NCBI RefSeq assembly: GCF_918797505.1
Contig: NC_092801.1
Span: 11,594,001-11,658,000 of the forward strand
Reading direction: 5' to 3'
Source of the DNA: Bemisia tabaci
Lineage: Eukaryota; Arthropoda; Insecta; Hemiptera; Aleyrodidae
DNA length: 64,000 nucleotides
Below, one piece after another: positions 1,681 to 64,000 of the stretch. The translations under genes were made by a program, and so were the position numbers. How positions within the stretch are numbered: the stretch's first letter is position 1; each line of letters opens with the position of its first letter. The notes beneath the pieces were generated by a model that did no database searches, was not told the origin of the DNA, and saw only the letters and a program-made list of their open reading frames with translations.

Positions 1681-1799
1681 CGGAGCGAAAGTTACAGGAT
1701 TACGACGCGCAATAATACATGCTTCCAAGGCACTCATATTGCCATTACAGTTATTGAAGGCGAACTAGACGATTGGAGACACGCAAGGATGCAAGTCAT

Positions 1800-1975
1800 T
1801 AAGGTGATTCGATGGACGCCATATTTTGCGTCAGAACGACCTGCTATATATCGCATCGATTGGCTCCATTTTTCAGCCACTGGTCATTTCTCTCGAATTT
1901 TGAGATCGCAATTCTGTTGTCAGGAGACTAAAGAATTCACTTACCAACTTTGACAAACAAATTCAACGTAATAAA
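1800..1975 (+). repeat. Family N repeat, plus copy
   Basis: About 175 bp running from AAGGTGATTCGATGGACG to ATTCAACGTAATAAA. It matches 40083-40257 in reverse orientation over its whole length, including ATCGCATCGATTGG and CAATTCTGTTGTCAGGAGAC. It has no coding content and its class is unknown. Confidence 0.7.
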
Positions 1976-2396
1976 CCTAACCTAACAGATTACCTTGATT
2001 AAAAATACCTAAATTTTGCCCAGGTTCAGTATGAATATGAATGCATTGACGCGTGCAAACCATGCAATTAAGTGGGACGAGACACATTTTGAGATCGAAT
2101 TCAAAAGTTTCGTAGTAAGAATTTTATAGGACTCGAAGAAAAAATCACAAAAACAGCCATCGAAAGTTACGGATTGAGAGCGGATTTTTCACGTGAAATT
2201 GTGTACACGTCACATGTTCAAAAACGTTAGCGTTAATTCGTTGTTAAGTTTTCAAAATAATTGTTCATCCTTGTGCAACATTTGAAGTACGTGCAATGGA
2301 TGGAAAAAACTAAATACAGAAAATTCGTAAAATTGACCAAAACAAAGTTATAACAAATTCAAGTGGTGTTCAAATAATGCAAGAAAACATACTTGT
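1976..2396. other. Unassigned AT-rich stretch
   Basis: I see no gene, inverted repeat or tandem repeat here. The last 8 bases (ATACTTGT, 2389-2396) are the left target duplication of the next element. Confidence 0.5.
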
Positions 2397-3260
2397 CAGG
2401 GCCGGATTAAGGGGGTGGCCACATGGGCCGCGGCCCATGGCGGCAAATCTAGAGGGCGGCAAATTTTGCAATTTTTTTAAATGTAGGTATAAAAAAATAT
2501 CGGATTTAGAAAAAAAAATTACAAACGAGGTAAGGGGACAAAATCTCTCATTTCCTGAGAGTGTTGTAATTTTTAATTTTGTCGTCTTTCAGTGATACAA
2601 GAGACAGCACCTTTAATTAGTCGAGTTAAAAGAGGAACCAAACACGCCACTTGGCCTGGAACGGCGCGGCGCAGAGAGCAATGATGACGAGGACTCGAGA
2701 TGAAAAGGAGAAGGCATCGGCGCGGCGATCGGCATGTAACACATATCAGCGCCTACAAGACTGCACGAATACTTCACGCATTGCATCAAACACAGTGCGG
2801 TCATTGCGGTCAGCGTGAAACGGATAGCGCCTACAAGAATGCATGAATACTTCACGCATTGCGCCAAACACAGTGCGGTCAGCGTGAAACGCATAGCGCC
2901 TACAAGACTGCGTGAATACTTCACGCATTGCGCCAAACACGGTGCGGTCTGCGCGGCGCGGCGGCGGGAGTTAAAATCATTAAACCACATTCATGTTTGT
3001 TCTTTCATAATTTTTTCCTACATTTCTTATGAATGGAAGGCCTTGTCCACACAGAGATAGGTTTACAAAACTTAACTTTTGCTAGTAGTGTTGACAGGGC
3101 ATCCCCAAAAAATGTGTTAAACACGAGTAAACGCGTCTTATGCACCCCACCCTCGCTGGCACGTTCACTTGATGGTTTTTATTGATGTTTCAATACGAAT
3201 GAGAAGGGGGCGGCAAAATCCAGGCGGCCCATGGGCGGCAAGTAGGTAAATCCGGCCCTG
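2397..3260. mobile_element. Family D hAT-like non-autonomous element, copy 1
   Basis: The element starts CAGGGCCGGATT and ends AATCCGGCCCTG, and it is flanked on both sides by ATACTTGT (2389-2396 and 3261-3268). CAGGG-type ends with an 8-bp duplication are characteristic of the hAT superfamily. Sub-terminal segments repeat inversely (GGCCCATGGCGGCAA on the left, GCGGCCCATGGGCGGCAA on the right). No transposase is present. The middle (about 2750-2955) is a minisatellite listed separately. The duplication is perfect, so the copy is fairly recent. Confidence 0.88.
2750..2955. repeat. Internal 66-bp minisatellite of family D
   Basis: Three units of about 66 bp contain AGCGCCTACAAGACTGC, ACTTCACGCATTGCGCC and CAGTGCGGTCAGCGTGAAACG. 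Unit number differs among D copies (three here, two in 31960-32782, about three in 36715-37303), so it behaves as a variable-number repeat inside a transposon. The short frames running through it on both strands are by-products of the repeat. Confidence 0.8.
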
Positions 3261-3854
3261 ATACTTGTTAGAAAAGTTTCCTAATGTGAATATTTTACAG
3301 TTTTCCCCCTGAAATTTTTCACTTTAGAACTGTCGAATTTCTCATTTTTTTTTCTTTCTTATGAAAACCGTCAGTGTAACTAAGACGAATATCGTATTTC
3401 ATTGAAGATGAAATATTAAAAGCAAAATCAAAACGTAATTGGTTACCGTTTTTCCAAAAAGGCCATTGAGTTCTGTGATCGGAGGATATCTGCATGTTCG
3501 AAAAACTCTAGAAGGATTGATCATTCATAAAACAATGATTCAGGATGGAGAAGGTTCTTGAATGAAAAGCCACGACCTTATGATAAATTTTGCGCAGTTT
3601 GCTCCCTTTCCGATGAAAATGGGGGCCATTTTTGAGGTGGAGCGGCGTGGCCTCGGAAATATTTTTGACGTAGTTTTGTTTTTTGTGACAAACGCAAATG
3701 TCAACAAAGTGGATTTTTTAAGTGCTGTGCCCCAATATCTGCTAATCAAACGAACTGAGAGCTCTACTGGTTTTTTAAAATACATTCCTTGACTGGTTAC
3801 AGACAGACACGCTACTGTTTTACTGGTATTTACGTCATTAAAATTGTATGCAAT
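3261..3854. other. Unassigned stretch
   Basis: Apart from the 8-base duplication at 3261-3268 I see no gene or repeat. Overlapping frames near 3540-3790 on both strands are short and not gene-like. Confidence 0.4.
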
Positions 3855-4060
3855 GCTGCCTTCCTAAGGAAGAACGCCGTATGAACATTCGAGAGTTGCC
3901 AAATTTCCTTCGATGAAATGTTAATTTTCGAGGAAAGTTATGAATATTTTTCCTTGACATTTTCAGAAACTTCAGATGAAATTGCAAACAACATTATCTG
4001 AAAAATTGGAAGAAAAATATTCACAAGTGTACCAGGAAATTCTAGAGTTAACTAATAAGT
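3855..4060. mobile_element. Family B left portion
   Basis: CTGCCTTCCTAAGGAAGAACGCCGT followed by a GAGAGTTGCCAAATTTCC-like segment is the left end of family B. It breaks off after about 200 bp, before a second B start at 4151, so this is a truncated copy. Confidence 0.65.
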
Positions 4061-4150
4061 TGGTGCGAACACGTCTCTTCCTCTTTGGTTTTTTTTTAAC
4101 GGTCTGTGTATCTGCCAGACATCCCGCCAGACAAGAAGCATCTAAGTATG

Positions 4151-4403
4151 CTGCAACGCTAAGGAAAATCGCCGTATGGGCCCTCAGAAGTTGCTACATT
4201 TCCTCTAATAAAACACAATTTTTTAGGAAAGTCATGAATATTTTTTCTTGAATTTTCCATAAATTTAAAATCAAATAGCGAATGAAATTCTTTGAAAAAT
4301 TGGAGGACAAATATCGAACAATTTTTTTTTTCAAAATTCGTATTTTATCGTAGGAAATTTGGCAACGCCTAAAGGCTCATACGGCGTTTTTCCTCAGCAC
4401 TGC
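4151..4403. mobile_element. Family B element
   Basis: It begins CTGCAACGCTAAGGAAA and ends TTTTTCCTCAGCACTGCA, with sub-terminal GTTGCTACATTTCC and GGAAATTTGGCAAC in inverted positions. Length agrees with other B copies. It is non-coding. Confidence 0.7.
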
Positions 4404-5241
4404 ATCATGACCCTACCCCGAGTACCCCGGGGCCGTTTGGGGGGGGGGGGGGCATTTGGGGGCCGTTTGGTGGCAAAACTCGATTCCTGGGGCTGCCCCG
4501 GAAGTGTCCCTAATCTGTGCTGTGGCGACTTTTACTAGGGATATTCACCGCTCTCAAGACTTTGAGAAAGCTGTTTTGCCCCGAATTTCTCCTCACTTGG
4601 GTCCTCTGAGAACATTTTGTTTCTTTCTGTCAAAACTCCTTGAACACACTGTGCGCTTGCTATTCTTGGGTGTCAAAAGAATTCATGGAGGCCGCGAAGA
4701 AAAACACCCTATGATAGAGGATAATGGGGCGTATTTATGTTGAAAAGAACCATGGACAAAGACATAAAATAAAGGAACACAACATACATAGGTTTTGCTT
4801 CCTTCATAGTACCTTTTGATGTAAATGATTCTCGCATAAGTGCTTTTAGCGTAAATACGTCCAATAAAAACAAATAGCGAGAAGTCACGATGTTCATCTT
4901 CAGTCAACGGTCTTGCCCCCGCTCTCATGTAAAAACCTCGCATCGCAAGCCTGTTGTCATTGGAGATAAGCGCTTTTGCCATCGAAAGCGGAGTGTCGGG
5001 CAACGGAGCGCCAGGTGACCCAGGTATATCATCATCGACACGCTAACCGATTCGCAAACTCGCGAAAATCCGCCCCCTCTCCGCTGTCCCTTCACATCAA
5101 GTGTTATTTACGTCCTTTTTCGCACCTGAGCTTCCCGGATCGAGGAGGAAGAAGATAGCTCTTTGGGAAGAAAAACGGCTAATCCGTGGGACCTGATGGT
5201 GGAACCGGTTGGAATTAAGAAACGGGACATAACCTGGGCCA
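4404..5241. other. Unassigned stretch with poly(G)
   Basis: A run of about 14 G (4439-4452) lies in a G-rich patch. Around 4735-4875 there are traces of a dispersed motif (GGACGTATTTACGCTAAAAG on the minus strand) also seen near 15478, 30215 and 33729. No supportable gene was found. Confidence 0.4.
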
Positions 5242-5658
5242 CACTGAAAAAAAAAAACTCGGTGTATTTACTAAGAAAAGGGTAAAATTACCAAGAATTT
5301 AGGGTTCTATTTGATCCCAGTTTTTCTTGGTAAAATTACCATTTATGGCATTGGTAATTTCACCGAGAAATCTCGGTAAAATTGTTGAACTTTCTCGGTA
5401 ATTTTACTGGACCTTGGTAAAAATGCCAATATTTTTTATCGACTGTGGTAAAATTACCGGAATAAAATGGCAAAGTTACCGAGAATTGATTACCAATAAA
5501 AGTGGTATTCTTACCTGAAAAAAAAACAGTAAAAATACCGGTTTCTAGGTAAGCTTACCAGTCTGTCTTGGTAAAATTACCAATAATTGGTAAAAAAAAG
5601 TGAGATGGTAAAGGTACCAACGGACCTTGGTAAAAACGCCGAGATTTTTTTTTCAGTG
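5242..5658. mobile_element. Family S element, copy 1
   Basis: The ends are CACTGAAAAAAA and TTTTTTTCAGTG. Nearly all of the 417-bp interior is built from a self-complementary motif of the type GGTAAAATTACC and its variants (for example TTGGTAAAATTACCAA and CTCGGTAATTTTACTGG), spaced irregularly. A second copy lies at 56046-56454 in opposite orientation and matches along its length. It is non-coding. Confidence 0.85.
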
Positions 5659-5757
5659 CGATGTAAAACTAATATGTCAAAAAAATCAAAAAGAAAAACG
5701 TTCATTTGCCCCTAGGTTAATATATTCTGGTTTTTACTGTTTCTGGCAATGTACATG

Positions 5758-5986
5758 CACTGGAGAAAAGACACATTGGATCTAAAGTCCAGACTCTTAA
5801 AAACATCGACGAGAAAAAATACTCTTGATTCAATCAGATTTAAGCTTAAATCAAGAACCAACCTCTTAATTTGAGCGGATTTCCTTTCGATTTAAGCTTG
5901 GATCTGATTGAATCAAGAGTCCTTTTTCTTGTCAATGTTTTCAAGAGCCTAGACTCTAGATCCAATGTGTTTTTTTTTTCCCAGTG
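5758..5986. mobile_element. Family A hairpin MITE, copy 1
   Basis: It starts CACTGGAGAAAAGACAC and ends in a T run followed by CCCAGTG. The two halves are inverted copies: ATTGGATCTA / TAGATCCAAT, AGTCCAGACTCTTAAAAACA / TGTTTTCAAGAGCCTAGACT, and AATACTCTTGATTCAATCAG / CTGATTGAATCAAGAGTCC. The centre is an AAGCTT-containing loop. The whole element can fold into one hairpin of about 100 bp. There are no coding bases of its own, although it opens short frames in both directions. Confidence 0.85.
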
Positions 5987-6097
5987 TGGAGTAGTACACC
6001 AATGGGTTATTTTGCCAGGGGGCCTTGCCCTCATACCACCGGGAGGTCCAGGGGGTATGGAATACCACTCAGTTTTGAGGAGGGCCCCGAGGGCCTA

Positions 6098-6440
6098 CCC
6101 CGAGAAATTTTCGAAATTTTAAATCTATTTGGACGCAATTTAAGGCTCCCATGACGCAGATTTGCCATCCATTTCTGCGGAAAAATTACGTTTATTTTTT
6201 TACCGTCAGCAAAGAATACTTCCGCATTTTTGCATTCAAGATATCCGGACAATTTTTGAAATTTTGAATCTACATATATTTGAACATTAGGCTTCCGTGA
6301 CGCAGATTTGTTATTAATTTCTGCAGAAAAATGTTGCTTTTTTACTTTCAGCACAAGATACTTGCGAATTGTTAACACACCTGGAAAAATCTTGAAATTT
6401 TAACTCTATTTAGACGCAATTTGAGGCTTCATGATGAAAA
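6098..6440. repeat. Tandem repeat, unit about 140 bp, 2.4 copies
   Basis: GAAATTTT with a following TCTA..TTGGAC-like stretch recurs at 6113, 6258 and 6394. The first two units also share GACGCAGATTTG, TTTCTGC and a TTTACTTTCAGCA-like stretch. Divergence is substantial, so it is old. Confidence 0.65.
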
Positions 6441-7407
6441 TTTTAGAAAATACTGACCGATTAATTACGGTGTTTTCATTTAAGACTCTACATTAAGAGA
6501 GATATAATCATCCTCGACGAAGGTTTATTCCTACCATCCAAAATTTCGGGGGGGGGGGGGGCGCAGATGATACTATTTTCAATTCTAATGGAAGCCAGGC
6601 CCCCTTCCCCCCTCCTTCGTACGCTCATGGCAAAGTAGGTGATCCCACTATTTTAACTTTTATTTATCTTGTGAGTTGAGTTACTTATTTAAAATTAAAA
6701 TTAGGACAAATTCCCGTCAAAAAAAGCCAGCAGGACATTTCATTTTTGTATGGCTATTTATAATGGGATAAAAAATGAGGAAAAATGTACCCGGAAAGCT
6801 ATTGGTAGGAAACTTTTTTTAAGGAATAATGACACTTGCCTCTTGTTAGAAGTAATTGGACGGAAGAGATTTCAGTAAATCGTGTTCATCGAATCTATTT
6901 TCATTGCGAGTACTATAGTGCTATATTTCAACCAAAAAATTAAGTAGTAGAAGTGGACATAGCGACATAGCTTACGTGTAAAAGAATTATAACGAGTGAA
7001 TTATATTGAAAGGAACTATGTTCATGCATAGGCTTTGAATTCTTCCTTGTTTTTAGTGTATACCTGCCGAAAAAATACAATATTTGTGCATGGTTTTTTT
7101 CAGCGAGGAGTTATGTGCAAATGAACTGGCGTGACGAAAAAAAAACGTGAAAAAATAGTAAAGTTTTTCCTGCTAAATTTTTTCGGGTTTATCACGCACG
7201 CACAAGTCTGAGTAAATCCATCTGCAGTTGATGCTATGCTATAATGCTTTTAGTTTCAAACTGCGCGACAGAAACATTTCTGCCTGGTAGGAAGTGCGTT
7301 GCTTTCTCCTCACTTAATTTTCAACAAATGTTGTATGCTAGAGAGCAAAAAGTATGTTCGCTCCAACACAGGTGTGGATATTAACTGCTATAATTCATAT
7401 TTTAGAC
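6441..7407. other. Unassigned AT-rich stretch with poly(G)
   Basis: A run of 13 G lies near 6549-6561. No credible gene, inverted repeat or tandem array was seen. Confidence 0.4.
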
Positions 7408-8515
7408 CAGTGATGTGACGTGACTTGCGATGTATCGATTGATCTGTCATTTAGGGTCAGTTGGGGTAATTCCGGACGATTTTGACGGTTGTAACCTAAT
7501 TTTTACTTTGACCCTTGGTTTGGACCAGTTAAACTGAATGAATTCAACATTTTTTTGGATCTGCCAGCTCCTTATATTGTTGAAAGCTAGTTAATATAGT
7601 ATTTGTCGAAAAAAAGTTTTTCAAAAATTTTTGGTGAATTTTTTTGTAGCGTCCGGAATTACCCCGTTGCAAACGGAATTACCCCACCGACGGTGGGGTA
7701 ATTCCGGAGGCGTATCTAAGTCCACGGCTATGTCTCTTTAATGAAATTATGCACACATACATATTAATAACTTAATATAATATACATTATAAATACTTAA
7801 TATAATAATATAATTAACATAATGTTATAAAATTGTGCCGCGGCAACAATGGTAAGATTTTGATTGGATACATCACGAACGGCACTGGCCAGATCACATT
7901 GCGTATAGAGAGGCTCACTCAGCTTCTTTTTTTTGTAATTCCTTGGCATTTTAGAAGCTAAAACAGATCAAAAAGTAAATTAATTATCAAATTTAAATTG
8001 GAAAATTGAATAAACGGAATTACCCCACCGGTGTTTTTCCGATGGGGTAATTCCGGTTTAACCTCAATCTGGACAGAGGTTCATTGATCATTCGAAAAAC
8101 AGGCAAAATTGTTTATTCATAAACAGAACAACTTATAGAAATAATGGTTGTTGGAATATAAAGATAATTTCTCTTACCTGTAACACTTTGCAGAGACGTT
8201 CCGAGTTTGGCGATTTGCTTTTTTTTCGCACCTTTACGACCGATCTCCTTATCACGCGTAAACAAACAAGAAATGAGAACCAAATCACTCAGGGTGACCA
8301 ACTGAACGTTGGCAACAACATACTAGCGCGAAAATTCCCTAACCTCAATTTTACGACCTCCATGATGCACATCCGGAATTACCCCGTGACGGAATTACCC
8401 CAACTGACCCTAAACCTATGGAAAAGGATCGCGAAGCTGGGTGTTAGCAACGAACACCTTAATAATCGATTCTTTGCCGTAGTTTCAAATGGAGAAATGT
8501 CGATAATCTATCATC
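7408..8515. mobile_element. Family M element interrupted by family K
   Basis: The left part (7408-7453) reads CAGTGATGTGACGTGACTTGCGATG and then CATTTA. The right part (8411 onward) resumes with TAAACCTATGG and includes CGAACACCTTAATAATCGATTC. Joining the two at the TA gives the M sequence CATTTAAACCTATGG. The far right end is degraded near 8515. Confidence 0.75.
7454..8410. mobile_element. Family K, TA-duplicating element with internal copies of its end motif
   Basis: The termini are perfect inverted repeats, GGGTCAGTTGGGGTAATTCC and its complement, and the element is flanked by TA on both sides inside an M copy. The motif GGGGTAATTCCGG recurs inside: inverted pairs at about 7652-7710 and 8016-8055, and a doubled copy at the right end (8370-8406). 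A TA duplication suits the Tc1/mariner group. The internal motif copies look like protein-binding sites. No transposase is encoded; the interior is AT-rich. Confidence 0.85.
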
Positions 8516-8814
8516 GACATTCTGCAAAGAGGACAATGGGCTTTAAGTCAAATCTCTAATTGCAATTTACAAACAAATATTGCAACCAAAACGTGCATAA
8601 CCAAAACTCAAATCCCCCTCTTTCCAAAGGACGAAGAGCCTGACGTCATCATCAAGCCAAACAATCCGTAGAGACAAAACGAAGGTGTATAAACGTCCAA
8701 TAAATCAAACAATGAATCATATCACGCCAGCCGTGGGAGAGGGGAGGGGCGGGGGAGAGGCTCGAAGACTGAGCAAGCGCAGAAGTTACAACCTTGGGGT
8801 CGGGAACGAGACGC
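8516..8814. other. Unassigned
   Basis: No gene or repeat recognised; a G/A-rich patch lies near 8730-8765. Confidence 0.35.
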
Positions 8815-59093: not shown

Positions 59094-59596
59094 CCCACGA
59101 TTAAACCTAATAATGCACAACGTGCGCCACTGCTACGAACGTGGCAACACTACCTGGTCCGTTTTGCTGCGCGAGAGCGCGAGAGTTACCAGTTCCTGAA
59201 AAAAAAGAAGAAGAAAAAAAATGTTTATTTAAATTGGCGGGAGGCGATGGTATCGCGTGGCGGTATCGTCTATTGCGCGCGCCTTGCGTTTCGGTGCGTT
59301 CGTTTGTGTGCGTCGGATTTTTCCGCGCCGGCCGCACCGCCGCGCTAGCGTCGCGCCTCGATGACAACTTAATCGGAGCCGATCGGCACCGCCATTTTGG
59401 TTTTGTTCCTTTTGTCGCGGTCTTTATGATCGATGGTTGGATCGATGCATCGATAGACTCCTATCTTAGAAAGGCTATTTATCGAAGCGTTCGATATCGA
59501 TTCTACAATCCCGACCAGAGAGAATCGGTATCCAAGCGGTGACACCTCAAGCGCACTCGTAGGGTCACTAGATCCTTGTACTATATGTTGTGTTAA
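59094..59596. other. Unassigned, CpG-rich in the middle
   Basis: 59230-59420 is CpG-rich (TCCGCGCCGGCCGCACCGCC). Frames on both strands (59052-59608) lie over it and are not recognised. A promoter or first exon is possible but unsupported. Confidence 0.3.
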
Positions 59597-60272
59597 TAGT
59601 CCAGGCAATAGAGCTCAAAATAGGAGGTTTGAGGGAAAGTTTAGTCGAACTAGCAATTATGAGTTAACTTTATGTTTTTTGGGTCGTAGAATCCGAATTT
59701 AGACTTGCCTGACAGATCCAACCCTCCCCCCGGCCGCCATTTTGAAAAAACGACTAAAATTTACGGTTTTTCCCCATTTTTTGCTCATAACTTTTTTTCT
59801 GTTCAAAATTTCGAAAATCTCGTCACTTTTGTGGAAAAACGATTAAATTTGCAAGAGATTGGTATATACATATGTACACTTAACGTGAAAACCGCGAGAA
59901 TGGGAGCGCGACGAAGGCAGCGGGAGATATCGATCTTGCGCCATTAGATACTTAACACCCTGCATCCTTGCAACCCTTTGCGTGTAATTCATATGAAACA
60001 AGCGGTTATTTCAATGTTTTATTTTATTAATCCCATTACATAAATGACTGGTTACGGGTTTAGACAAAATCAAAAATATTTTCAAAATGTGGACATGTTT
60101 GATAGGTAAGTAAGTGAGTTAGTCCAATCGTGGGCGTTTGGCAGCTCGGTGCAACGAAGTTCTAACTTTTGGTGACGGACAGGTGGATGGGCCTGGTTTT
60201 CCTCCATAGACATCACGGCCGGCGTTGATCTCCGACTCTAACACAGTATCCAGAATATGAAGCTAGAAGTCA

Positions 60273-60276
60273 GACG

Positions 60277-60307
<31 letters not shown>

Positions 60308-60375
60308 GGGAAGGGAAGGAAAGAAAAGGGAAGGGAAGGGAAGGAAAAAAAAGGGGGAAAGAAAGGAACCTAAAT
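60273..60375. repeat. (GAAAA)n/(GGGAA)n microsatellite in the left arm
   Basis: Runs of AAAAG change to GGGAA and then to an A run. The equivalent part of the right arm (about 61000-61053) is half as long, showing expansion after the arms formed. Confidence 0.8.
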
Positions 60376-60481
60376 TGAAGGAAGATTAAAATTTTCGCAT
60401 CACTAATCCCAAATAGAAAAAGCATTCTGGTTTACTGTATCAAGCAGTCTGGTGTTCATATATGATGTGTATTTCTGATAA

Positions 60482-60743
60482 TCCTGCAAGTGCAAAACGA
60501 GTTGTCCAGGCGCGTGCGGTTGCAGGAAATGTGGGCTTAAATGCTCAGCATTGTGCATCAACTGCAGTGATACATGCGAGAACATGCCTGAAATTGCTTT
60601 AGCGGACTCTGAAGACGAGGATGATGTTGAAGCTTATGACTTTTTCGACAAGCCAAGTACAGAAGAAGATTTTGAAGCTGTCATGACTGAAGTTCAAGAC
60701 CTTCCAGAAAGCCCACATTCAGAAATAAACAATGTACCTAAAG
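60482..60743 (+). pseudogene. Captured cysteine-rich exon fragment
   Basis: The frame is open from just after in-frame TGA TAA to a donor-like AAAG/GTTTGT at 60743, about 87 codons. Residues 2-36 have regularly spaced cysteines: CKCKTSC, then CGCRKCGLKCSALC, then INCSDTC. This layout (CxC..C, CGCRK.GL.C...C..C) is like the short zinc-binding cysteine-rich tail of many hypothetical arthropod proteins, some close to the CXC/tesmin type. An acidic segment follows (ADSEDEDDVEAYDFF). No start codon and no complete protein. The fragment sits exactly where the element's inverted arms stop, so it looks captured from a host or transposon gene. It might instead be the last relic of the element's own protein. 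Confidence 0.6.
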
Positions 60744-61668
60744 GTTTGTTATTTCTTTTACACTGCTCGCTTGTCATAAAAAACTTCTTGCATAGAAAAA
60801 ATACCATGGCAAGCTTTATTAAACAATCAGGTGTTCGTTAGTGACATGTACTCCTGATAATCATTACCAAAAATTTGGGTAAGGATTATCAGAAATACAC
60901 ACCATATATGAACACCAGACTGCTAGATACAGTACGCCAGAATGCTTTTTCTATTTGGGATTAGTGATGCGAAAATTTTAATCTTCCATCAATTTAGGTT
61001 CCTTTTTTCCCCTTTTCTTTTCATTTCTTTTTTTTTTTTTCGTCTGACTTCTAGCTTCATATTCTGGATACTGTGTTAGAGTCGGAGATCAACGCCGGCC
61101 GTGATGTCTATGGAGGAAAACCAGGCCCATCCACCTGTCCGTCACCAAAAGTTAGAACTTCGTTGCACCGAGCTGCCAAACGCCCACGATTGGACTAACT
61201 CACTTACTTACCTATCAAACATGTCCACATTTTGAAAATATTTTTGATTTTGTCTAAATCCGTAACCAGTCATTTATGTTATGGGATTAATAAAATAATA
61301 CATTGAAATAACCGCTTGTTTAATATGACTTAAACGTAAAGGGTTGCAGGGATAAAGGGTGTTAAGTACGAGGGTCATCCAAAAAGTAAGGTTCCCTACC
61401 TTTGTGCCTTCCGAGCGAAACAAGATAAATTAAATCGGTAAAAAATCACATATCAGGCATACTCAAAGCTTTAAAACAAGCTCAAGTTTTTGAAAATCGG
61501 TCAAAGGATTCGCGAGTAAACTTAATTTTACAGAGACGACCTCCTGTCGGCGCGTGCCCACCTCCGGGGTCAGGATGCGCGGAGAGTCGATTATTGAAGA
61601 CTCGGGTTATCGCCTTTATACATCACATCAACAAGGAATTTTAAAGTTTTCATTGAGTAGGCCTTACC

Positions 61669-61825
61669 TTACTTTTTGACGTAGTCTCCACATCTTTTTT
61701 TGACATTTCTGGTAACATTACAGCCTCCTCAGCTCTTCTTGATGCCCTCCGGGTATAGAAGCTTTCGCCTTGACTCTAACACCAATATCCAGTCTTTGAC
61801 AGCTATCTGTACCTCTGAATTGGTT
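61669..61825 (-). pseudogene. Mariner transposase C-terminal fragment, minus copy
   Basis: On the minus strand the sequence SEVQIAVKDW is followed by a worn ESRRKLLYPEGIKK-like segment and ends near GDYVKK-type codons and a stop at 61669-61671. This matches the C-terminal part of mariner transposases (WF..QG.SFF..GIKKL). Catalytic residues lie upstream in a full protein and are absent. Confidence 0.75.
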
Positions 61826-61943
61826 GAAAATCGCTTCCATCGTGGAAGTTGTTCCGCTCGGGAACAAATGAAGTCACATGAAGCTAAAGTAAGAGAGTTT
61901 GAAGGATTGGGGGAAAATTTCCCTACGCAAAGCAACTGCTTTG

Positions 61944-62073
61944 GAAGTGCAGATAGCTGTCAATGACTGGTTTTGGAGTCAAGGCGAAAGCTTCTTCTCG
62001 GGAGGCATCAAGAAGCTGCTGTAATGATACCAGAAATGTCAAAAAAAGATGTGGAGACTACGTCAAAAAGTAA
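61944..62073 (+). pseudogene. Mariner transposase C-terminal fragment, plus copy
   Basis: EVQIAVNDWFWSQGES and FFSGGIKKLL are readable, then a frameshift with in-frame stop, then CGDYVKK and the stop TAA at 62071-62073. It is the mirror copy of 61669-61825. The DDD catalytic domain and DNA-binding domain are absent. Confidence 0.82.
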
Positions 62074-62722
62074 GGTGAGGCCTACTCAATAAAAACCTTA
62101 AAATTCCTTGTTGATGTGGTGTATAGAGGCGATAACCCGAGTCTTCAATAATCGACTCTCCGCGCATCCTGACCCCGGAGGTATGGGCTCGCGCCGACAT
62201 AGGAGGTTGTCTCTGTAAAATTAAGTTTACTCGCGAATCCTTCGACCGATTTTCAAAAACTTGAGCTTGTTTTAAAGCTTAGAGTATGCCTGATATGTGA
62301 TTTTTTACTGCTTTGATTTATCTTGTCTCGCTCGGAAGATACAAGGTAGGGAACCTTACTTTTTGGATGACCCTCGTATCTAGTGGCGTAAGATCGATAT
62401 CTCCCGCTGCCTTCGTCGCGCTCCCATTCTCGCGGTTTTCACGTTAAGTGTACATATGTATATACCAATCTCTTGCAAATTTAATCGTCTTTCCACAAAA
62501 GTGACGAGATTTTCGAAATTTTGAACAGAAAAAAAGTTATGAGCAAAAAATGGGGAAAAACCGTAAATTTTAGTCGTTTTTTTCAAAATGGCGGCCGGGG
62601 AGAGGGTCGGATCTGTCAGGCAAGTCGAAATTCGGATTCTACGACCCAAAAAACATAAAGTTAGCCCATAATTGCTAGTTCGACTAAACTTTCCCTCAAA
62701 AATTCTCTATTGCCTGGACTAT

Positions 62723-63494
62723 AAAGAAAAACGTCGCATGAACATTCGAGGGTTGTAAAATGTATACCATTTTTTTTCTTCTTTTTTTTCTTTTTTTCTT
62801 TTTTTCTTTTTTTCTTTTTTTTCTTTTTTTTTCTTTTTTTCTTTTTTTTCTTTTTTTTCTTTTTTTTTTTTTCTTTTTTTTTTCTTTTTTTTTCTTTTTT
62901 TTTTTTTTTCTTTTTTTTCTTTTTTTTTCTTTTTTTTCTTTTTTTTCTTTTTTTTTCTTTTTTTTCTTTTTTTTCTTTTTTTCTTTTTTTCTTTTTTTTT
63001 TCTTTTTTTCTTTTTTTTTCTTTTTTTTCTTTTTTTTTTCTTTTTTTTCTTTTTTTTCTTTTTTTCTTTTTTTTCTTTTTTTCTTTTTTTTCTTTTTTTT
63101 TCTTTTTTTTCTTTTTTTTTTTTTTTTTTTTTTTCTTTTTTTTCTTTTTTTTTTTTTTTCTTTTTTTTTTCTTTTTTTTCTTTTTTTTTCTTTTTTTTCT
63201 TTTTTTTTCTTTTTTTTCTTTTTTTTCTTTTTTTTTCTTTTTTTTCTTTTTTTTCTTTTTTTTCTTTTTTTTTCTTTTTTTTCTTTTTTTTCTTTTTTTT
63301 TTCTTTTTTTTCTTTTTTTTAGAGAAAAGTTTTGAATATTTTTTCTTTGAAATTTCAATTATTTCACATCCAATTCGATTAAGTTCTACCGAAAATTGGA
63401 AGAAAACTATTCGAAAGTTTCCTAGAGAATTTGCGTTCTGTTAAAGGTAATCAAGCAACACCCGAAGGCTCGTACAGTGCGTTTCTTCGTTGTG
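62723..63494. mobile_element. Family B element swollen by a microsatellite
   Basis: The left end AAAGAAAAACGTCGCATGAA then CATTCGAGGGTTG, and the right end AATCAAGCAACACCCGAAGG then CGTACAGTGCGTTTCTTCG, are B termini. Between them lies a 551-bp (T)nC tract in place of part of the interior. Confidence 0.7.
62769..63320. repeat. 551-bp (T5-12 C)n polypyrimidine tract
   Basis: Runs of 5 to about 20 T separated by single C. It creates a Lys-rich frame of 220 codons on the minus strand and a Phe-rich frame of 191 codons on the plus strand, neither of which is a gene. Confidence 0.95.
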
Positions 63495-63519: not shown

Positions 63520-63755
63520 CACTGGAAAAAAAAAAAAAACACATTGGATCTGGTGTCCAAACTCTTGAAAATATTGACAAGAAAAAGGACTCTTGATTCA
63601 GTCAGATTTAAGCTTAAATCAAGAGGAAATCCGCTTAAATTAAGAGGCTTGGTTCTTGATTAAAGCTTAATTAATCTGATTGAGTCAAGAGTCTTTTTTC
63701 TTGCCGATGTTTTTAAGAGTCTGGACTCTAGATCCAATGTATTTTTTCTCCAGTG
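63520..63755. mobile_element. Family A hairpin MITE, last copy
   Basis: Ends CACTGGAAAAAAAAAAAAAA and ATTTTTTCTCCAGTG. The arms are well matched (ACTCTTGATTCAGTCAGATT / AATCTGATTGAGTCAAGAGT), and the loop contains AAGCTTAA. Confidence 0.87.
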
Positions 63756-64000
63756 TATCATTTAAATATGAATTAAATTTAGAGACTTTGACAAAAAGAT
63801 ATAGACGTTAAAATAAATTGCATTAAATCAGTCAGCAGTGAACTTATTGTTTTCGATGAACGGGTTTGAATTTTAATGGTCTAGAGACTTTAACGAAAGG
63901 GTAGAAATGTAGGCAGAGGCGATTCTTGTAAGTTGGCAACACTGCAGTTTTTTCTCCATTTAAATGTATGTTAAACAGTTGATTCTCGGTGAATCAGTTT
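63756..64000. other. Unassigned, with a dispersed repeat at the edge
   Basis: 63908-64000 matches 39830-39930 (GATTCTTGTAAGTTGGC, CTCCATTTAAATGTATGT) and runs off the window. Confidence 0.45.

Follow-up and report, generated by a model that had tools for sequence, protein, structure and literature searches.

Architecture of the palindromic element

Within the window, a stretch of 64,000 nucleotides of Bemisia tabaci DNA, a palindrome was located at positions 59597-62721, comprising inverted arms that are 97% identical and a loop of approximately 400 bp. Its features are as follows (window coordinates).

59594..59596, no strand: target site duplication TAA, left copy
59597..60485, plus strand: left arm
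59597-59952: outer left arm, the natural terminal inverted repeat, beginning TAGTCCAGGCAATAG
59953-60485: inner left arm, apparently the 3' gene end copied in inverted orientation
60119..60237, minus strand: the transposon gene's last coding exon in antisense (tblastn with the predicted protein P0002, 60238-60122; same 39 residues as the right-arm copy)
60486..60881, plus strand: loop, 396 bp
60491..60743, plus strand: predicted penultimate coding exon, encoding the cysteine-rich CXC-like tail and the acidic region of the transposon protein (predicted splice sites: acceptor AG 60489-60490, donor GT 60744-60745)
60744..61079, plus strand: predicted last intron, crossing the boundary between loop and right arm (gene model P0002 joins both coding pieces across it)
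60882..61368, plus strand: right arm, inner part
61080..61198, plus strand: last coding exon, ending in KRPRLD and a stop
61367..61368, no strand: TA duplication of the mariner-like insert, left copy (the left arm represents the empty site)
61369..62376, no strand: palindromic mariner-like insert, 1008 bp (arms 61369-61815 and 61944-62376, 94.4% identical, gaps left out)
62377..62378, no strand: TA duplication of the mariner-like insert, right copy
62379..62721, plus strand: right arm, outer part, the natural terminal inverted repeat
62722..62724, no strand: target site duplication TAA, right copy

After removal of the insert and one TA, 804 of 829 aligned arm positions match (97.0%, K2P 0.031), a figure that leaves out six gaps totalling 61 nt. 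The comparison of arm against arm by BLAST yielded E values of 0.0 and 2e-158. The longest exact inverted match reached 229 bp in the palindrome versus 12-64 bp in the 18 other 3125-bp tiles of the window, and a 227-bp exact block covers the last exon, which was a post hoc observation. The two facing arms with long identical blocks described in the initial annotation were recovered by these measurements, as was the loop of about 400 bp, and the coordinates proved correct to 1 bp. The arm length of about 850 bp given there held in part: arm sequence of approximately 850-890 bp is present, but a second palindrome (61369-62376), which had been overlooked, splits the right arm. A continuous arm of 889 bp exists only on the left, and the right arm is the same sequence split by the insert. 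The cysteine-rich open frame said to mark the start of the loop was also found, extending from stop to stop over 60482-60841 and beginning 4 bp ahead of the loop.

Two further structural readings were rejected. A third copy of the arm end within the loop scored 35 compared with a best score of 36 among 500 shuffles, and no claim is made for it. A separate TTAA-type element formed by the inner arms (start CTTAACACCC) was discarded, as the arms are continuous once the mariner-like insert is removed. With regards to the neighbourhood, a T/C-rich simple repeat of approximately 560 bp (62766-63321) lies within the repeat that the palindrome interrupts, and a palindromic repeat family of approximately 230 bp occurs at 63530-63758 and at about ten other places in the window, its copies being roughly 72-95% identical.

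Genomic copies, mobility and the nested insert

A search of the 610-Mb B. tabaci genome with the loop returned at least 40 matches, which makes the palindrome multicopy. The loop lay between inverted arms in 36 of 37 further stretches that were fetched (35 distinct, L063 and L064 being identical and counted once among independent copies), some of which are rearranged or interrupted, and L074 was the exception; all copies were located through the loop sequence, and the figure of 36 of 37 rests on that route. Equal 3-bp target duplications flanked 27 of the 27 copies with both ends found (26 independent), one end having escaped the pattern used in 10 of the 37 stretches. TAA flanks the window copy at either end. 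The repeat into which it is inserted also occurs elsewhere in the window, there with its sequence intact. A mobile element of the foldback type, as had been proposed for this locus, agrees well with the multiple copies and the target duplications at their borders.

Some copies are nearly identical. L045, L046 and L048 differ by 1-4 substitutions in approximately 3075 bp, and L052, L054, L055 and L066 by 1-9 substitutions in approximately 3068 bp (gaps left out in both cases), and the left 400-bp flanks are mutually unrelated in nine copies of these two young groups. Since the 3-bp duplications match and near-identical copies have unrelated left flanks, the palindrome moved as one unit, and recently. 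No near-identical autonomous partner of the young non-autonomous copies (e.g. L045-L048) was seen in the assembly; a mobilising copy could be absent, could have gone unscored or lie outside the assembly, or could be a diverged relative. No match was found when phage sequences were searched with the left arm, and a 15-base end pattern with one match in each of 32 stretches was taken as chance.

The two parts of the arms were compared within and between copies. Outer arms differ by a mean of 2.8% within a copy versus 5.4% between copies, and inner arms by 7.25% within versus 7.6% between copies; inner left and inner right arms fall into largely separate groups, and the insert is situated at the boundary of outer and inner part. 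This pattern suggests that the outer part of the arm was homogenised within copies by conversion. The window copy shows no such homogenisation (3.2% for the outer and 3.1% for the inner arms).

The insert in the right arm is called mariner-like on the grounds of its TA duplication, its terminal repeats and weak PDB matches. The TA target duplication of Tc1/mariner elements is present at the window insert and also at a second site in L073. Both insert arms hold remnants resembling the C-terminus of a mariner transposase, and all five PDB matches of these remnants were to C-termini of Mos1 or SETMAR, at weak E values of 0.4-1.5. The sole Pfam match of the insert was a sub-threshold DUF (E 0.12), and an exact match to its end pattern was not found in viral contigs. 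Because the insert arms have diverged more (K2P 0.059) than the arms of the host palindrome (0.031), the insert was probably palindromic already on its arrival in the element.

The insert was found in 33 of the 37 fetched stretches, at one site in the right arm in 32 of 37, and is not present in L051, L063, L064 and L074. The common site is uninterrupted in L051, in L063 and in the first right arm of L056; the latter combines this uninterrupted right arm with a second right end carrying the insert, an arrangement that needs recombination or conversion. In L073 (3336-4317), a separate insertion of the palindromic mariner-like element occupies a right-arm position 34-36 bp away from the common site; it has TA flanks and matches better in reverse. 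Because of this second, independent insertion, we conclude that the insert was once a mobile palindrome in its own right. Of the 32 inserts at the common site, 15 have lost part of the left end, the alignment beginning at base 7, 8 or 14, and an insert with such an end presumably moves only as a passenger. The insert is old.

The loop exon and the parent transposon

Two full-length open frames of the B. tabaci genome align at their C-terminus with the loop exon (27 of 51 and 23 of 52 residues match). Judged by these alignments, what had been taken for a captured exon encodes the cysteine-rich C-terminus of a protein of approximately 1550 aa that belongs to the transposon family itself. In P0002, a protein predicted from B. 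tabaci, the loop sequence is spliced to the last exon ending in KRPRLD, which is present in both arms; as it reads the cysteine-rich part in another frame, P0002 supports the splice, not that reading. A second gene model (P0004, nr, B. tabaci), which is glyoxylate-reductase-like, opens with the loop exon of the transposon family, and this fusion reflects either exonisation or an annotation error.

Three relatives inform on the parent. The first, L074 (C2:85635-90863), is a non-palindromic element of 5.2 kb with TAC duplications. The outer arm is matched at either end and, in addition, the loop in the right part; inner-arm sequence is absent at both ends, and hence this element says nothing on the position of the last exon in the parent. 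Its N-terminal coding piece matches open frames of 1576 aa (51%) and 1527 aa (40%) elsewhere in the genome, and both of these proteins have a similar cysteine-rich, acidic and basic-tailed C-terminus. The L088 element contains a frame at 3063-7790 between terminal repeats at 2276-2637 and 8197-8568 (346 bp at 97%), with a TAA duplication, and the L089 element (C10) a frame of 1527 aa at 1701-6281 between terminal repeats at 432-1214 and 6751-7543 (a 761-bp stretch at 100%), with a CTT duplication. The termini of the two full-length relatives, TAGTCCAGTCAATAG and TAGTCCAGTCAATCTA, are almost like those of the palindrome. As an observation in its own right, the AcademX-like element L089 (432-7543), whose repeats are identical over 761 bp, looks young.

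The coding region lies outside the terminal repeats in both L088 and L089, and for this reason the preferred reading is that the loop and the inner arms derive from the 3' end of the gene belonging to the transposon itself, the inner left arm as an inverted copy of it. An intact autonomous copy of the same subfamily was not seen among the 150 of 444 candidates scored, where the best other N-terminal match was 51%. Among 37 sequences (36 distinct stretches and the window), 24 keep the exon frame intact, 10 have it broken and 3 contain it in part. Since the young group L045-L048 lost one motif cysteine (as did L049), coding function appears unnecessary for spread, which tells against an active role of the protein, and the coding pieces seem to be passengers. 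The loop frame had no match in Pfam, the loop yielded just two unrelated PDB matches by sequence (E 2.1), and no relatives of the loop protein were found in viral and prokaryote contigs.

The palindrome is best filed as a non-autonomous derivative of an AcademX-like transposon; we write AcademX-like, as it is not a proven member. A cysteine-rich C-terminus, known from insect relatives, may be typical of AcademX; both full-length relatives have one, and the loop exon aligns with it. AcademX elements are described as having target duplications of 3 or 4 bp and as encoding a nuclease (PMC10045372). The duplications observed here are of 3 bp and within this range in all 27 copies, as well as in the window copy (TAA) and in the relatives L088 (TAA), L089 (CTT) and C2:85635-90863 (TAC), and the large protein of the parent family with its nuclease-like region would be a further likeness. 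The defining nuclease domain of AcademX is of XPG type; the nuclease-like region of L089 matched models of 5'-3' exonuclease (E 0.025) and flap endonuclease (E 0.071) as well as PF02739 (E 0.086), each below threshold. None of these matches was obtained with L088. For L088 and L089, the Pfam XPG model was not matched at E 1 or 10, and the nuclease-like region had no PDB match by sequence. A query of the genome with this region returned at least 146 matches, pieces of one copy being counted apart (141 of 516 candidates scored). The AcademX elements differ from the palindrome, which is a coding-deficient derivative and itself lacks a nuclease-like part.

Three other assignments were rejected. 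The Galileo or P superfamily has 7-bp duplications, compared with 3 bp in 27 of 27 copies. PIF/Harbinger elements target TWA; here the targets varied (CAA, TCA, CAG, TGG, ATC and others), with TTA in 1 and TAA in none of the 27 copies and TAA in the window copy. CACTA transposons have CACTA termini, compared with TAGTCC in the palindrome. Classic Foldback (FB) elements, a fourth candidate group, have terminal repeats made of short tandem repeats.

Origin of the palindrome and related systems

We consider it highly probable that the palindrome is a recently mobile, non-autonomous DNA transposon of B. tabaci with an AcademX-like parent, and that it gained its two like ends through the inverted duplication of a single end, the 3' end, of that parent. 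The parent would have been an AcademX-like element with terminal repeats of a few hundred base pairs and one protein of approximately 1550 aa with a cysteine-rich C-terminus. Its central and 5' portions would have been lost, and the 3' end, comprising the last intron, last exon, 3' flank and terminal repeat, would have been duplicated in inverted orientation, which would leave two like ends around a loop of approximately 400 bp holding the penultimate exon. The palindromic mariner-like element entered the right arm of one lineage and has been carried along since, its site being common to 32 of 37 stretches. The ends would be recognised and the unit cut and pasted in trans by a related AcademX-like transposase, leaving 3-bp duplications. 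As an intact autonomous copy of the same subfamily was not seen among the candidates scored, we infer this enzyme, whose source may be a diverged relative or an unseen copy.

A transcript through the palindrome had been expected to form a very long hairpin, and the predicted folding agrees: the read-through RNA folds at -2289.5 kcal/mol versus -797 to -828 kcal/mol for four mononucleotide shuffles, with a longest helix of 249 bp and 466 inner-arm, 334 outer-arm and 454 insert pairs. Mu killer, a MuDR derivative of maize, is described as having both ends from the same parent end, a partial inverted duplication of the transposase gene and a proposed hairpin transcript (PMC3440606). The two like ends and the partial inverted copy of a transposase gene are shared with the palindrome, and together with the predicted fold, far below those of the shuffles, this layout speaks for a long hairpin RNA by which the palindrome would silence the transposon family it belongs to, an explanation that is compatible with the duplication origin. 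However, the recent copies show that movement was not shut down, and we regard such silencing as unlikely. The more specific scenario, that a read-through hairpin with approximately 800 arm-to-arm bp supplies Dicer with substrate and acts against the last exon of AcademX-like transposases, which would make the palindrome a mobile, multicopy animal counterpart of Mu killer, is quite doubtful; if it were true, the parasite family spreading the palindrome would also be held in check by it. The two systems differ in that Mu killer is a locus silencing MuDR in which the mudrA-adjacent end is duplicated (PMC3440606), whereas the whitefly palindrome is a multicopy mobile family in which the 3' gene end is duplicated, and in that another transposon and another kingdom are concerned.

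Alternatively, the terminal repeats of the parent could always have measured approximately 890 bp and included the last exon, and the palindrome would then be a simple internal deletion that involved no inverted copying of the gene end. The long repeats of L089, a member of this superfamily, lend some credit to this idea, and the absence of inner-arm sequence at both ends of C2:85635-90863 is compatible with it; as the open frame lies outside the repeats in both L088 and L089, we judge it rather improbable. Capture of a host exon by a foldback transposon, as suggested in the initial annotation, would account for the frame, which is open, resembles an exon, has splice-like borders and is enclosed by long inverted arms, and the P0004 model does fuse the loop exon to a host dehydrogenase. 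However, the frame aligns with the C-terminal part of a protein that the transposon family itself encodes, the exon that follows is located in the arms, and the same loop recurs between the same arms in 36 of 37 palindromic or related stretches (all found via the loop), which makes capture very improbable and led us to abandon it in favour of the duplicated 3' end. The other earlier suggestion, a recent inverted duplication, taken here as a local and immobile one, would fit the high arm identity, but can practically be dismissed given the TAA duplication and the empty site in the interrupted repeat family, the dozens of loci sharing the structure and the unrelated left flanks of nine compared copies.

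For derivatives with long terminal inverted repeats (TIRs), insects offer a published precedent. Long-TIR copies of Galileo in Drosophila mojavensis are described as non-autonomous and nearly all long terminal repeat (up to approximately 1250 bp), and in some of them internal sequence was duplicated and inverted and so extended the repeats, as with 441 bp of F1 (PMC3573991). Galileo belongs to the P-element superfamily with 7-bp duplications, in contrast to the 3 bp and the AcademX-like protein of the whitefly palindrome. With respect to two like ends, artificial Mos1 mariners with two right ends are reported to show the most excision in vitro, and Mboumar-9, which is related to Mos1, to prefer two left ends (PMC4505599); two like ends therefore need not handicap transposition. 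The nested whitefly insert resembles the Mos1 construct in being a mariner-like element with two like ends, but the latter was engineered, whereas the insert is old and often truncated at its left end. A palindromic Academ-type family did not appear in titles and abstract openings of the open-licence literature, among the matches listed, and the word foldback is absent from the main text, as accessible, of two B. tabaci transposon papers (PMC9017028, PMC9143410).

For annotation of the species, it matters that exons of the palindrome appear in the B. tabaci gene models P0002 and P0004. Near-perfect palindromes of two to three kilobases are usually regarded as unstable. The element described here shows that a near-perfect palindrome can spread recently through an animal genome as a transposon, with a second palindromic transposon as its passenger. 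In an insect, it allows two questions to be put to the test: how a single parent end gives rise to long-TIR elements, and whether such palindromes silence their parents.
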